Below, piece by piece: positions 7,588 to 33,080 of a stretch of DNA of 64,000 bases; positions within the stretch are counted from its first letter, which is position 1; each line of letters opens with the position of its first letter. The notes below the pieces were generated by a model that was not told where the DNA came from, ran no database searches, and saw nothing but the letters and a program-made list of their open reading frames with translations. The DNA is from Saprospiraceae bacterium (lineage in GTDB: Bacteria > Bacteroidota > Bacteroidia > Chitinophagales > Saprospiraceae): positions 1 through 64,000 of the forward strand of contig JAQXDE010000005.1 of NCBI GenBank assembly GCA_029251525.1, in the 5' to 3' direction. Both the position numbers and the translations under genes were made by a program.

Positions 7588-7635
7588 CTAAATCACTTAC
7601 AAGGTGATGATATTCGACTTACGAGTAAAATCAAT

Positions 7636-7674
7636 AAAAAAAGTGAGGCAGAACACTTCTGCCTCACTTTTTTT
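7636..7674 (+). terminator. Intrinsic terminator of rimK operon
   Basis: A perfect 13-bp inverted repeat (AAGTGAGGCAGAA at 7641-7653 and its complement at 7657-7669) with a 3-nt loop, flanked by A and T runs. It ends the rimK-deacylase operon and insulates it from the ECF promoter that starts about 20 bp downstream. Its position shows that the open frame beginning at 7604 is not translated from there. Confidence 0.92.
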
Positions 7675-7692
7675 ATTTCACCTATTCGCCAA

Positions 7693-7743
7693 TTTTAAAA
7701 AAAATAAAGACTCAGGCAACTATTCTTATCGTTCTTACACCAA
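7693..7743 (+). promoter_or_regulatory. Putative ECF-sigma promoter, copy A (sigma operon)
   Basis: This is an A-rich upstream tract (7693-7711), TCAGGCAAC (7712-7720) as -35 element, a 15-nt spacer and TACACCAA (7736-7743) as -10 element. The same arrangement with the same spacer length recurs at 10041-10091. The flanks are 33/36 identical between the copies, while the spacer matches at only 6/15 positions, the pattern expected of a sigma-factor recognition site. Transcription would start near 7749, about 20 nt before the TTG start of the sigma gene, implying autoregulation. Confidence 0.7.
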
Positions 7744-7768
7744 AGATATAAACCTAATAATTTTCAAC

Positions 7769-8308
7769 TTGGAGCAATCGGATAAAATATTACTAAAAGG
7801 CTGTTTGAAAGGAGATCGAAATGCTCAAAAAGCACTTTATGAAAAATTTAAAGTGCCTATGTTTCGAATTTGCTTACGCTATGCAAATGATCGTCCTGAG
7901 GCCGAAGATATGCTACAAGAAGGGTTTGTAAAAGTGTTTTTAGATTTACATCAATTTCGCAAAGAAGGCCCCTTGGGAGGATGGATTAGAAGAGTAATAG
8001 TCAATGTGGCACTGATGCAAATTAGAAAAAGAAGGAAATTATTCTCGAATGTAGAAGTTGAAAATCTTTCAGATAGTGTGACGACGGATGAAGATGTATT
8101 TGCAGAAATGAATGCGAAAGCGTTGACTAGGATTATTCAAAAATTACCAACAGGTTATCGAGTCGTTTTTAATATGTATGTGATTGAAGGATATTCACAC
8201 AAAGAAATTGCAGAAAAATTAGAGGTCTCCGTTAATACTTCAAAGTCGCAATTATCGAAAGCTAAGGCGACTTTACGAAAAATGTTAGAGAAGTGTATTG
8301 TAGGATAA
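7769..8308 (+). CDS. ECF-type RNA polymerase sigma-70 factor
   Basis: Extracytoplasmic-function sigma factor, 179 residues from a TTG start at 7769. The frame is open back to 7604, but that stretch covers the rimK terminator and the putative promoter, so the upstream start is rejected. Region 2 runs from LLKGCLKGDRNAQ (about 7-19) through EAEDMLQEGFVKVF (about 45-58) to GWIRRVIVNVAL. Region 4 has the helix-turn-helix YSHKEIAEKLEVSVNTSKSQ at about 144-163. It directs RNA polymerase to a small envelope-response regulon. The next gene, 40 bp downstream, encodes a membrane protein with an anti-sigma-like N-terminus. The shared upstream motif suggests that it transcribes its own operon and the 10198 lipoprotein. 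Confidence 0.9.
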   Translation: MEQSDKILLKGCLKGDRNAQKALYEKFKVPMFRICLRYANDRPEAEDMLQEGFVKVFLDLHQFRKEGPLGGWIRRVIVNVALMQIRKRRKLFSNVEVENLSDSVTTDEDVFAEMNAKALTRIIQKLPTGYRVVFNMYVIEGYSHKEIAEKLEVSVNTSKSQLSKAKATLRKMLEKCIVG

Positions 8309-8348
8309 CGTCGATCGTAAAACGTTTAACGACTAACGAAAAAAAAAT

Positions 8349-9875
8349 ATGGATAAAAATTTACCAAAAGATCCCCTTGAAGAATTTTTTAAAAAATCTT
8401 TAGAAGGGCAAAATGAACTTCCTTCCGATAATGGTTGGGATATTCCTTCCTTGAATGTGTGGGATAGGGTAGAGGCAGATATTCAACCAACTGCAATCGT
8501 TCGACCGATTAATTATTGGAAATGGGCAACAGTTGTTGCATCTATGGTATTATTGTTTTTTACATATAAATGGAGTACTCAAAATGAACAAATTGAAGAA
8601 TTAGTAATTGAAATAAATGAGAATAATGAGCAATTAGAAACTGTAAAAGGATTGTTGAAAAACAAAGAAAAAGAAATTGAATCACTTGTAGTTGAACAAA
8701 ATATAGATAATATATATAATCAACAAAGTATTGAAAATGAAGAAGTTGTGCAAAGAGATGATGTGAGAGTATCTCATCGCGCGACTCATTTTTCTGAAAA
8801 AAATAAAAATGAAATAGGAGGAAAAAATAATAATGAATCGCCAAAAAATCCAACTCTAAATACTGGAAATATGGTCAACCAAAAAGTAGAAAATATAATC
8901 GTAGAAAATTTAGATAAAGCTAATTTTGACAACAGCAAAGAGGAATTAATAGATAAAAAAATAATACAAGAGATTAATGAATTACCTAAACGTAATTTTG
9001 TAGTTGAGTCTTCAGTTGATAATGAAAAATTAAAAGCTGAATGGGGTAGGGTTGCGACTATTAACCTTAAAAAAGAAAGATTAAATAGTAAACTTTTTGT
9101 AGGAGTTTATGGGAGTCGGAATTTTGGGATGCGATCCATTGTTGCCGACGATTCAAGTATTTCTCAAATTAGAAAAAATGAGATTAAAAACATTCGAGAA
9201 AAAGAATCTTGGACAACTGGAGGAGGTGTGAAACTAGGTTTTCAAATCAATAAAAATTGGAGTATCGAAACAGGTCTTCAATACACAAAATCAGAAATTA
9301 CAGCAAGACACCTAATCCAAAAACAATATAATGCTGCGAGCGAAATACAAAATTCTTCTGGTGATTTTGAAAATGAATTTGCCTTTTTATTAGTCACACC
9401 AATGGGTGATGTAGAGTCAGATGTGACCTTATCGCGTTCTGCGATGAGTACTGCAATTCCAGATCAATTAGTCTATATTCCAGTTGAAAGTAATCAAAAG
9501 ATTAGTTTCTTAGGTATCCCAATTTTGGCGAAATATAGATTCGGAAATGAAACATTTAGGCTTGGGTTGAAGGGTGGCGTTTTGGCTAATTTTATTTTGG
9601 ATGCGGATGTTGAAATTAGTAATGTCGATACCCCATTCCCAAATCTTCGTCATCGAAAACATCGAATTAGTAATAAAACAGAATTGGAAAATCTAAAAAC
9701 AACTACGATAAATTGGTTAGCTGGGGTCGAAGCTGAGGTGAAATTAAATGATAAAATGTATTTTTTATTTGAGCCTTCTTTCTCGAAAAATATATCACCC
9801 ATCTTTGAAAAAAACAATGTTAAAACATATCCTCTGATGGCGAATGTAAAAGTAGGTGTGAATTATTTGTTTTAA
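8349..9875 (+). CDS. Anti-sigma-like single-pass protein fused to an outer-membrane beta-barrel
   Basis: 508-residue protein with an unusual architecture. Residues 1-56 are hydrophilic with Trp/Asp motifs (GWDIPSLNVWDRVEADI) and sit where an anti-sigma domain would. Residues 57-75 form one membrane helix. Residues 78-116 are a heptad-rich coiled coil, followed by a Glu/Asn/Lys-rich linker to about 245. Residues 249-508 alternate polar and hydrophobic strands like a PorT/OMP_b-brl barrel (start LFVGVYGSRNFG) and end in ...VNYLF, the terminal Phe expected of a BAM substrate. An inner-membrane helix and a barrel in one chain imply a protein crossing the whole envelope. It is operonic with the ECF sigma gene, so it is probably the anti-sigma factor. 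Confidence 0.78.
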   Translation: MDKNLPKDPLEEFFKKSLEGQNELPSDNGWDIPSLNVWDRVEADIQPTAIVRPINYWKWATVVASMVLLFFTYKWSTQNEQIEELVIEINENNEQLETVKGLLKNKEKEIESLVVEQNIDNIYNQQSIENEEVVQRDDVRVSHRATHFSEKNKNEIGGKNNNESPKNPTLNTGNMVNQKVENIIVENLDKANFDNSKEELIDKKIIQEINELPKRNFVVESSVDNEKLKAEWGRVATINLKKERLNSKLFVGVYGSRNFGMRSIVADDSSISQIRKNEIKNIREKESWTTGGGVKLGFQINKNWSIETGLQYTKSEITARHLIQKQYNAASEIQNSSGDFENEFAFLLVTPMGDVESDVTLSRSAMSTAIPDQLVYIPVESNQKISFLGIPILAKYRFGNETFRLGLKGGVLANFILDADVEISNVDTPFPNLRHRKHRISNKTELENLKTTTINWLAGVEAEVKLNDKMYFLFEPSFSKNISPIFEKNNVKTYPLMANVKVGVNYLF

Positions 9876-10197
9876 GTAAATACCATAAGTTTTATAATTA
9901 CAGATTTTTCCAAATCATCAAGTTAATTATTTTGTTTATTTTTTGGTAGGCATAAAAGCCTGCTGTCACATTAATATAGGTGCAAGTCATTCCTATAAAT
10001 TGATTTATATTAAATACTTGTAAATGAATTGTTATTAATATTTTCAAAAAAATAAAAATTCAGGCAACCTTTTTTTTATTCAATACACCAATAGATTGTA
10101 TTTAGTTTTTTACTTAGAACTTTTAAATAAAGATTTTTATCGAAAAAATTTACTAGTTTCTTGTAAACCATTTTTTCATCATTAAAACCATTCTTCA
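9876..10197. other. Intergenic region with ECF promoter copy B
   Basis: AT-rich spacer between the barrel gene and the PepSY-like lipoprotein. It holds a short GTAGGC/GCCTGC inverted repeat near 9946-9962 without a following T-run, then the second copy of the ECF-like promoter (10041-10091) and a leader of about 100 nt. No coding sequence was seen. Confidence 0.6.
10041..10091 (+). promoter_or_regulatory. Putative ECF-sigma promoter, copy B (PepSY-like lipoprotein)
   Basis: A-rich tract (10041-10059), TCAGGCAAC (10060-10068), a 15-nt spacer and TACACCAA (10084-10091). It is aligned base for base with the block in front of the ECF sigma gene. Only three mismatches fall outside the spacer. This makes the following lipoprotein gene a likely target of the neighbouring sigma factor. 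Confidence 0.7.
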
Positions 10198-10956
10198 ATG
10201 AGAAATTTATCAATCATTTTAACTTCAATCGTTGGCCTAAGTTTATTTGCAATATCATGTAACAAGGACTCAAGTATTTCCGAAGACACGGAATTAATCC
10301 AACAAATTGTAGAGTCAGAAAATAGATCAACTATTGATCCAAGTGATTTGCCAACTGTAACAAAAATAACTCTTGATGAAGAGTATTTTGAGACATATAT
10401 AGAAAATGTTGTTGTAGCGAGAGGTCTAGGATTTGAAGTAGAGTTAGGTAATGGGGAAAATATTTATTTTAGCGAGCGAGGAGAAGGACTAGTCAGTCGA
10501 AGAGGATTCCGCCACGGGCATGGACCATGTGGAATGGGACATCGAGGAATTCGAGTACCAATAGCAAACTTGCCAACAAGCATCGTAGATTACATCGCTG
10601 CAAATTACCTAGGTGCAGAAACCAAAAGAGCAAAGACAAATAACAATAATGGGAATTATTTTGTTTTGATAAAAACCGATGACGGAAGAGTTGTTTTGAA
10701 ATTTGATGCAGACGGCAATTTCATAGAAGAAGTATCATGTATTTATCATGGCTGTGGCGGTATTATTCAAGTAGACGTAGCTGACTTATTAACGACAATT
10801 GTAGATTATATTATTGCCAATTATCCTACTGCAGACATTCAAAAAGCAGGGCAAAAAATAAATTCTGGAAACTATGGCGTGGTGTTAAATATAGATGGTG
10901 ACCGAGTGATTGTAGTCTTCGATGAAGGTGGAAATTTTTTATTTGAAAGATCATAA
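10198..10956 (+). CDS. Lipoprotein with two PepSY-like repeats
   Basis: Lipoprotein of 252 residues: lipobox FAISC with Cys21, so anchored after LspA cleavage. Two tandem beta-alpha-beta modules at about 118-179 and 189-249 share the pattern NLPTSIVDYIAANY ... GNY.V......GR..L.FD..GNF. This is the PepSY-like/BLIP-like fold used by periplasmic inhibitor or sensor proteins. Before each repeat is a short His/Cys-rich segment (GHGPCGMGH at 107-115; CIYHGCGG at 181-188) that could bind a metal or form disulfides. A promoter-like block shared with the ECF sigma operon lies upstream, suggesting that it is induced by envelope stress. The function is unknown; a feedback ligand of the barrel protein is one speculative possibility. 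Confidence 0.75.
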   Translation: MRNLSIILTSIVGLSLFAISCNKDSSISEDTELIQQIVESENRSTIDPSDLPTVTKITLDEEYFETYIENVVVARGLGFEVELGNGENIYFSERGEGLVSRRGFRHGHGPCGMGHRGIRVPIANLPTSIVDYIAANYLGAETKRAKTNNNNGNYFVLIKTDDGRVVLKFDADGNFIEEVSCIYHGCGGIIQVDVADLLTTIVDYIIANYPTADIQKAGQKINSGNYGVVLNIDGDRVIVVFDEGGNFLFERS

Positions 10957-32129: not shown

Positions 32130-33080
32130 CTATTTTTTTCCACCATCAAGCTCTTTTTGCCATTCTTTTAATTCATTAAACTTACCTCTTGCTGCAAATC
32201 TTGCTTGACGAGCCCATGTGTCTGGTTTATGGATTTTAAACCTACCGCCAGCTTCTTCTAAAATATTTCGAAGAACCCCAATTCTTGTTTTGGATAAATC
32301 TGAAACAGTATTGATTCCTTTAGATTTTAAAAGTTTTTCAATCGCTGGTCCGATACCTTCCACAATTTTCAAATTTTCTAGCTGAGTTTGCGTAACTATC
32401 CGTTTTTGAGTTGTTGGTTTCTTTTTAGCAGCAGTTTTACTAGTTCTAGTTATTTTTTTTGATGAAGTAAATGGAACATCTTCACTGCTTACCTTCACTA
32501 CTTTTTTAGGAATACTTTTTTTAGTTGCTGGCTTTACTGAAGAAACTATTTTTTTTGGAGTAGTTTTTTTGGCAACTACTTTTTTAGGAATAAGTTTTTT
32601 TGTGACCTTTACTTTTTTCGGAGCAGGGTCAACTACCTTTAAAATTGTTTTTTTTAGTGCTACTTTTTTAGGTAAGGTAGTTTTTCTTTTTTTTGTGTTT
32701 GTCTTTGATTTTTTGACTCTAAGTGCTTTAGGTAACCGTTTGATTGGCTTTTTGGAAGTTGTTGGTTCGAGTTTATCAAGTGTTGTTACTCGAGCATTAC
32801 TTTTTGGTTTTTTTGGTGCTGTGACTTTATTAGAATCTGTTTTTTTTGTTTTGGCTTTTGAGCTAGATTTAGGTCTGTTAGGTTTATTTTTTGTTTTTTT
32901 ATCAAAAAACTCTTTAGCTGTTTTGTATGCATTTTTCGCTTCCTTCATTTCTTTCTTAGCTTTAAGAAAACGCTCTTTTAATGCTTTTAAGATTTTTTTA
33001 TCAATTTTTTTTGACAAATTTTTCTTGATTTTTTTATTGTTACCCATAGATGCTTTTTTTAATTGCTTGATGATTTTCAT
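32130..33080 (-). CDS. Lysine-rich histone H1-like protein with C-terminal helix-hairpin-helix domain
   Basis: 316-residue, strongly basic protein. Residues 1-60 form a Lys-rich helix, about 62-225 are low-complexity repeats of Lys, Thr, Pro, Ala and Val (KKVVAKKTTPKKIV-type), like bacterial histone H1 mimics and AlgP. Residues 228-316 are a compact domain: LENLKIVEGIGPAIEKLLKS (the HhH core VEGIGPAIEKLL at about 236-247), then GRFKIHKPDTWARQARFAARG. This domain is known as a C-terminal extension on other Bacteroidota proteins, for example on ribosomal protein L21. It is likely a nucleoid or nucleic-acid-binding protein. The basic repeats make the opposite strand openly readable, which is an artefact. 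Confidence 0.8.
   Translation of the reverse strand: MKIIKQLKKASMGNNKKIKKNLSKKIDKKILKALKERFLKAKKEMKEAKNAYKTAKEFFDKKTKNKPNRPKSSSKAKTKKTDSNKVTAPKKPKSNARVTTLDKLEPTTSKKPIKRLPKALRVKKSKTNTKKRKTTLPKKVALKKTILKVVDPAPKKVKVTKKLIPKKVVAKKTTPKKIVSSVKPATKKSIPKKVVKVSSEDVPFTSSKKITRTSKTAAKKKPTTQKRIVTQTQLENLKIVEGIGPAIEKLLKSKGINTVSDLSKTRIGVLRNILEEAGGRFKIHKPDTWARQARFAARGKFNELKEWQKELDGGKK

Follow-up and report, generated by a model that had tools for sequence, protein, structure and literature searches.

A predicted Dma-type anti-sigma factor in a Saprospiraceae bacterium, with matching candidate promoters before its operon and a nearby lipoprotein gene

The question raised by this locus is whether a single polypeptide chain could hold an ECF sigma factor at the inner membrane and, from the outer membrane, decide on its release. 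In our reading, to which a probability of roughly 0.85 is assigned, the locus encodes a sigma factor together with a Dma-type anti-sigma factor, with damage-triggered release and an output from two promoters. All of its genes lie on the plus strand of the window, i.e., the whole stretch of 64,000 nucleotides that was analysed (assembly GCA_029251525.1, contig JAQXDE010000005.1, positions 1 to 64,000). The ECF sigma factor gene (7769..8308), for which a matching frame is found in related loci, encodes sigma-70 region 2 (Pfam Sigma70_r2, 3.8e-14) and region 4 (Sigma70_r4_2, 1.8e-17). Its likely start is the TTG codon at 7769-7771, which agrees with the placement in the first-pass annotation; the sigma alignments start at 7772, one codon after it. 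Directly after the sigma gene, as had also been stated there, follows a frame of 508 residues, which is one intact ORF (8349..9875) with an ATG start. The next gene of the locus (10198..10956) encodes a PepSY-like lipoprotein, and candidate ECF promoters precede the sigma gene (7713..7741) and the lipoprotein gene (10061..10089). Upstream genes of the RimK and AstE/AspA types are separated from the locus by a hairpin of 20 pairs (7633-7677, listed on the minus strand), which is taken for a terminator. The closest named relatives of the sigma gene among the best 80 loci are Saprospiraceae MAGs. Elsewhere in the window, at 32130-33080 on the minus strand, a very lysine-rich protein of 316 residues with a helix-hairpin-helix-like end (ENLKIVEGIGPAIEKLL...) is encoded, which we take to be reminiscent of nucleoid proteins.

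The anatomy of the 508-residue protein was modelled with AlphaFold from a 41-row alignment, window included (mean pLDDT 74.8, pTM 0.54). The putative N-terminal anti-sigma domain (residues 1-56; 8349..8516), delimited by alignments, model and profiles, contains two short helices (9-19 and 35-44) and the residues P33 and W38, which are invariant in the alignments; it is poorly modelled, with block pLDDT values of 49-71 for residues 1-60. It is followed by a single unbroken helix (56-116), which would comprise the membrane helix (residues 57-77; 8517..8579) and, continuous with it, a periplasmic coiled coil (residues 78-116; 8580..8696). Both elements had been proposed from the first inspection of the sequence. 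One membrane helix is in accordance with the model and with a hydrophobic stretch that keeps its position across the homologues, and the coiled coil is reflected in a heptad pattern, which over the 39 residues following that helix has p = 0.006 for the window protein and is found at p <= 0.05 in 19 of the 41 proteins, window included, versus 1 of 41 mid-tether control segments. The linker, estimated at roughly 130 residues, measures 132 (residues 117-248; 8697..9092) and is predicted to be a disordered periplasmic tether, with pLDDT below 50 across most of 118-242. Among the 41 proteins, the distance from membrane helix to barrel is 124-343 residues (median 180, window 172). The idea that the tether is a molecular ruler of fixed length was rejected, its CV being 0.24 versus 0.09-0.11 for the other parts. 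In the relative G020 (L004, G020:C1; L058/L017, G020:C38) the tether contains a run of repeated Glu-Val-Ala, and both contigs stop within that run, which is a tandem repeat, perhaps of variable length.

The C-terminal region (residues 249-508; 9093..9872), for which a missing barrel had been named as one of the findings that would overturn the original idea, is predicted by AlphaFold to form an outer-membrane beta-barrel, with strands from 249 to 507 and pLDDT mostly above 90. The prediction is backed by VIA-align, whose matches span about residues 244-508, i.e., the barrel (Z-scores: Legionella porin III 19.1, NspA 18.8, OprF 18.3, OmpA 18.1, OmpW 17.8), and by two Pfam barrel models above cut-off, OMP_b-brl_2 (1.6e-8) and OMP_b-brl (1.5e-7), which at E <= 0.01 match 23 and 26 of the 41 proteins, respectively. 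The barrel is confidently predicted to be OmpA/OmpW-like. From the small-barrel fold matches we infer eight membrane strands, so that both barrel ends would face the periplasm, as the tether needs. A strand pair at 340-363 of the model is taken for a surface hairpin. The C-terminal Phe noted at the outset is present in the window protein (...NYLF) but does not hold as a general mark, being the last residue in 25 of the 41 proteins (otherwise L in 8, R in 4, D in 2, K and W in 1 each). In NCBIfam, no family scores above cut-off for the anti-sigma factor or the lipoprotein, and a sequence search of solved structures with the whole anti-sigma factor gave a single chance-like match (E 0.84).

The Dma family of Bacteroides, which the first-pass annotation had cited, is indeed published, and with the domain order of the window protein: N-terminal anti-sigma domain, membrane helix, disordered tether, barrel (2026 Dma2 paper, PMC13088901). 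In the excerpts of that paper, this anatomy, with one membrane helix, is described for Dma1-Dma3/Das of Bacteroides thetaiotaomicron; ECF21 sigma factors adjoin Dma genes, the sigma gene being the neighbour in the cases of Dma1 and Dma2, and, as in the window, a third gene lies beside the sigma-dma pair. In the Dma2 operon the third gene is BT_1557, of unknown function, whereas in the window it encodes a PepSY-like lipoprotein with its own promoter-like site. The coiled coil after the membrane helix is a feature of the window protein that the excerpts do not mention for Dma, and three Dma proteins are named there for B. thetaiotaomicron (PMC13088901), in contrast to up to eleven pairs in the genome of the window. 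A second known system, EcfO-Reo of Phocaeicola vulgatus and Bacteroides fragilis, likewise contains a periplasm-spanning anti-sigma factor with a C-terminal outer-membrane barrel, and raises its own sigma gene together with lipoprotein genes, as is predicted for the window; its output consists of NigD proteins, the NigD lipoproteins of P. vulgatus being driven by EcfO, and differs in this from the PepSY-like lipoprotein (excerpts of PMC9308784, PMC13114119). In P. vulgatus, the sigma gene paired with Reo, a protein of the same layout, is up 33-fold under an envelope toxin (PMC9308784). According to the excerpted accounts of these published relatives, absence of the anti-sigma factor frees the sigma factor, and envelope damage induces the system. 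A mark of the Dma factors is that sigma activity and vesicle formation rise when the protein is lost.

Since its domain order is that of the published Dma/Reo architecture, the window protein is of a kind that is already known. It is most likely a Dma protein, as judged by anatomy and by the neighbouring ECF sigma gene; no Bacteroides title occurs among the best 80 sigma-gene loci. Among the literature matches listed are the papers on Dma and Reo, and no paper there deals with a pair of this kind from Saprospiraceae; a literature search for barrel-bearing anti-sigma factors in this group gave unrelated material only. Four features do not appear in the excerpted text of the Dma/Reo papers, namely the two paired promoters, a PepSY-like lipoprotein as output, the sister clade devoid of barrels, and the count of pairs per genome.

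From predicted anatomy, gene order, paired promoter-like sites and co-variation of the N-terminal domain with the sigma factor, the following course of events is proposed. Residues 1-56 would retain the sigma factor at the inner membrane, the single helix would cross that membrane and continue as coiled coil, the disordered tether would span the periplasm, and the C-terminal barrel would reside in the outer membrane. If the outer membrane or the insertion of the barrel were disturbed, the chain would change and the sigma factor would be freed. Release is the least certain step. Most likely the chain would be cut, first within the periplasm and thereafter within the membrane; tension alone, transmitted by the tether, is possible but less likely. 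The freed sigma factor would then read two near-identical promoters, of which the one before its own operon would provide self-amplification and resupply of the inhibitor, and the one before the PepSY-like lipoprotein gene would yield the main output. That the protein senses the state of the outer membrane, as had been suggested initially, would follow by analogy with Reo and Dma.

What the barrel senses could be more specific. TonB-dependent transducers read a specific ligand at the cell surface, and the barrel of the window protein, with the same anatomy throughout, may read a surface ligand or partner instead of general outer-membrane damage. This alternative is rather unlikely, albeit the strongest of those considered; it would accord with up to eleven Dma-like pairs in this one genome, each with its own barrel sequence, and with the putative surface hairpin at 340-363. 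Against it speak the inducers that excerpts of PMC9308784 and PMC13114119 give for Reo, namely oxygen, residence in the mouse gut and antibacterial toxins, among which is an inhibitor of BamA.

The number of pairs was estimated from 28 sigma-like matches in the own genome of the window. Twelve proteins of 330-500 residues follow other sigma matches, ten of which are found by the barrel profile at E < 1e-3 (the weakest being L148, 8e-4; L145 and L150 are unmatched), and five of the ten scanned pass the Pfam barrel cut-off. With the window counted, the genome may thus contain up to eleven Dma-like pairs. Because only three of the ten barrel-matching proteins (L142, L143, L144) are found by the N-domain profile at E < 1e-3, the remaining pairs are Dma-like by anatomy and gene order and not by their N-terminal domain. 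A second sigma/barrel-like stretch (L150, L137; G000:C25:381106-382756) carries in-frame stops in both matches and looks decayed. Across the phylum, the N-terminal domain (E <= 1e-4) is present in at least 93 of 395 genomes; with 13 candidates scored in each genome, the true number may be higher. Frame lengths among the 150 phylum matches listed are 150-349 residues in 67 cases, 350-399 in 4, 400-699 in 72, and more than 700 in 7. All of 20 hand-picked phylum loci have an ECF sigma gene directly upstream, preceded in 7 by [GT]GCAAC[CT]. The barrel profile matches 11 of the 14 long ones; the other three (L176, L177, L178) are long proteins beside ECF sigma genes, in which another C-terminal domain may replace the barrel. 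On a contig labelled Thermoanaerobaculia (Acidobacteriota), the pair L094 is nested among Saprospirales ones, and the contig is probably misbinned.

With regard to the question of which end holds the sigma factor, comparison of evolutionary distances, a group of short homologues and the place of these in the sigma tree point to residues 1-56; they lend indirect support to a contact between N-terminus and sigma factor, the absence of which had been named at the start as a third way to refute the idea. Distances between N-terminal domains correlate with those between the neighbouring sigma factors at rho 0.43 (820 pairs, 41 proteins), a modest value that includes shared phylogeny; for the barrel, mean rho is 0.19 and the highest 0.33 over 100 length-matched column samples, the N-terminal domain thus tracking sigma evolution better than every one of them. 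At 14 loci between L070 and L110, in Saprospirales relatives, the anti-sigma factors are only 169-229 residues long (L098 is cut by the contig end). Beside a related sigma gene, they have the N-terminal domain and the membrane helix in common with the window protein and differ from it in being devoid of tether and barrel. They were chosen by eye, by their N-termini, beside related sigma genes, and all 14 are found, at E 5e-9 to 6e-15, by a profile built from residues 1-56 of barrel forms only; the barrel profile reaches E 4 at best, and two FecR-type controls give E 1.3 and 0.57 with the N-domain profile. Among 11 other barrel-less neighbours, this profile finds seven at E < 1e-3 (L105, L109, L111, L117, L119, L121, L122) and misses L113, L115, L116 and L118. 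The latter four, from Flavobacteriia/Flavobacteriales, are 214-279 residues long, lie next to related sigma genes, have ...SLTI(T/L)R as their last residues, and match neither the N-domain nor the barrel profile.

The short forms may be derived from barrel-containing ones. In an unrooted sigma tree of 76 rows (loci L049, L057, L081, L082 and L120 left out), the 14 short forms make up one clade (100/100), which is placed among barrel forms with an enclosing branch of 92/88; in its labels, L058, L060 and L090 count as long though their contigs end before any barrel could show, and L098 and L105 as barrel-less though cut. In all 14 of these loci, GGCAACC precedes the sigma gene. In the sequence that follows 15 barrel-less loci, up to 3 kb and inside the contigs, a search for remnants of a barrel gave none; L070, L091 and L098 offer fewer than 300 bases there. 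Loss of the barrel is the likelier reading, with others possible, as the root of the sigma tree was not inferred.

A whole clade without tether and barrel would also fit a different course, in which the chain is cut after export into a free barrel, which is no sensor, and a free anti-sigma factor of the inner membrane, each acting independently. The tether could be cut, since it is disordered and poorly conserved and since the stretch from membrane helix to barrel ranges from 124 to 343 residues in the 41 proteins. Yet the long forms have retained both tether and barrel over great divergence, and Dma1 reportedly acts as a single chain, according to the abstract of the Dma1 study, which makes separate action of the two halves improbable; the uncut, membrane-to-membrane chain is preferred.

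The protein is present in 14 of 60 genomes searched, own genome included; in that search it was not found in the same-genus genomes G002 and G003 (66% complete). A frameshift or an assembly join, which had been named at the start as a way to refute the fusion, is rejected, the gene being whole in G004 and represented by long frames in 40 further homologues. These 40 long frames, hand-picked from the best 80 sigma-gene loci, constitute with the window the set of 41 proteins; they align over their full length, L071, L072 and L074 with a shorter barrel part. The copy in G001 is 87% identical from residue 38 onward, where the contig end cuts it. In G004 the search gave 65-68% identity; by region, the copy is identical to 86% in the N-terminal domain, 71% in the membrane helix, 56% in the coil, 49% in the tether and 76% in the barrel. 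That an ordinary inner-membrane anti-sigma factor was joined to an unrelated outer-membrane protein, be it by frameshift, assembly join or a functionless recent fusion, is hardly credible: a membrane helix and a barrel in a single chain are unusual, and barrel-less short forms exist, but 40 further homologues share the layout, the G001 and G004 copies are free of stops, and of 14 loci with long frames in the phylum-wide sample, 11 match the barrel profile.

The two candidate promoters conform to CAGGCAAC-N15-[TG][AG]CACC, and in the window both sites read CAGGCAAC, 15 bases, TACACC. Equal spacing recurs at both places in G004, G005, G020 and G035; in G001 the site is present at the lipoprotein gene, the sigma gene lying off the contig. 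Among 7 relatives, the strict pattern yields 11 sites in five genomes, 9 of them at the locus and 2 elsewhere, none in the other two, and none across all 7 with the reversed control. A looser pattern finds 5 sites in the own genome (reversed control 1), 2 of them at the locus, which are the only ones with CA before GGCAAC. The other three matches and the two strays of the relatives all lie inside mechanical open frames; as the first site of the window also lies inside such a frame, namely the GTG-extended sigma frame 7604-8308, this test for strays is not clean. De novo, GCAACC is the top six-mer in the 200 bases upstream, being present at 62 of 79 sigma genes versus 5.9 expected (L108, whose match begins at the contig end, is omitted). 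At loci with a similar -35 and a different -10 element, the second site repeats the -10 of its own locus, which is GTACT in L051 and L061, ACCTA in L102 and L104, and TTACAT in the G004 paralogue L025.

In a fixed-spacing test, 45 loci with anti-sigma factors longer than 300 residues yielded a second site in 13 cases (p <= 0.05), chance being about 2 of 45, and 17 loci with shorter ones yielded none. The 13 positives include the window and L003, which are same-genus relatives, and L045, which was scored away from its visible second site, the spacer there being one base shorter and outside the fixed-spacing scoring. The other Dma locus of the own genome that was tested, L022, gave p = 0.34. L076 and L083, promoter pairs by eye, were discarded with p values of 0.99 and 0.18. 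Because the minus strand often scores equally or higher (32 of 62 rows), clear pairing is confined to a minority of loci, which includes the window. The excerpts of PMC7366714, PMC12596196, PMC8999054 and PMC12045153 contain no motif or class usable for comparison.

The predicted output of the sigma factor is the PepSY-like lipoprotein, which passes the Pfam cut-off for PepSY_like (PF11396; 1.9e-11, 44.5 bits versus 28.3) and carries a lipobox-type Cys 21 that is invariant in 9 of 9 aligned rows, window included. Its AlphaFold model (mean pLDDT 79.7) consists of three alpha-beta repeats, and the best Foldseek matches, 3u1w, 3db7 (BT0923), 3elg and 3due, are Bacteroidales proteins of the PepSY/DUF2874 kind, with E values of 1e-7 to 2e-5 and low whole-model TM-scores. 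Among downstream proteins of 10 related loci scanned with Pfam, six pass the PepSY_like cut-off (L045, L053, L006, L010, L100, L104), L004 (27.9 bits) and L087 (21.4 bits) remain below it, and neither L022 nor L012 gives a PepSY match. L022, L018, L025 and L008 represent another Dma-type pair of the genus, with a relative in G008, which is followed by a different type of lipoprotein with a sequence near ACIxLVYPISYxMPDG; that of L022 has no Pfam match, and that of L025 has its own promoter letters. Among the known systems, Dma1 acts through NigD1; a literature search gave no paper joining a PepSY-like protein with a sigma factor and an anti-sigma factor.

Summarizing, gut Bacteroides already provide examples of this design, and the novelty lies in two predicted switches that match each other; a nearby lipoprotein gene would be under the control of one of them. 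For the recently described Dma class, little is settled about the inducing signal or the direct targets. The predicted two-site regulon, which recurs in the genomes of relatives and at some loci has its own -10 element, makes the direct targets testable, and the clade devoid of barrels offers a natural experiment, in which the part presumed to hold the sigma factor is separated from the part presumed to sense. Tentatively, each sigma-Dma pair may be a closed, insulated channel, with one sensor, one sigma factor and two promoters of locus-specific -10 that drive the pair and one lipoprotein, up to eleven of which would run in parallel. If so, the cell would read several separate aspects of its outer membrane, each of them answered by a lipoprotein of its own.
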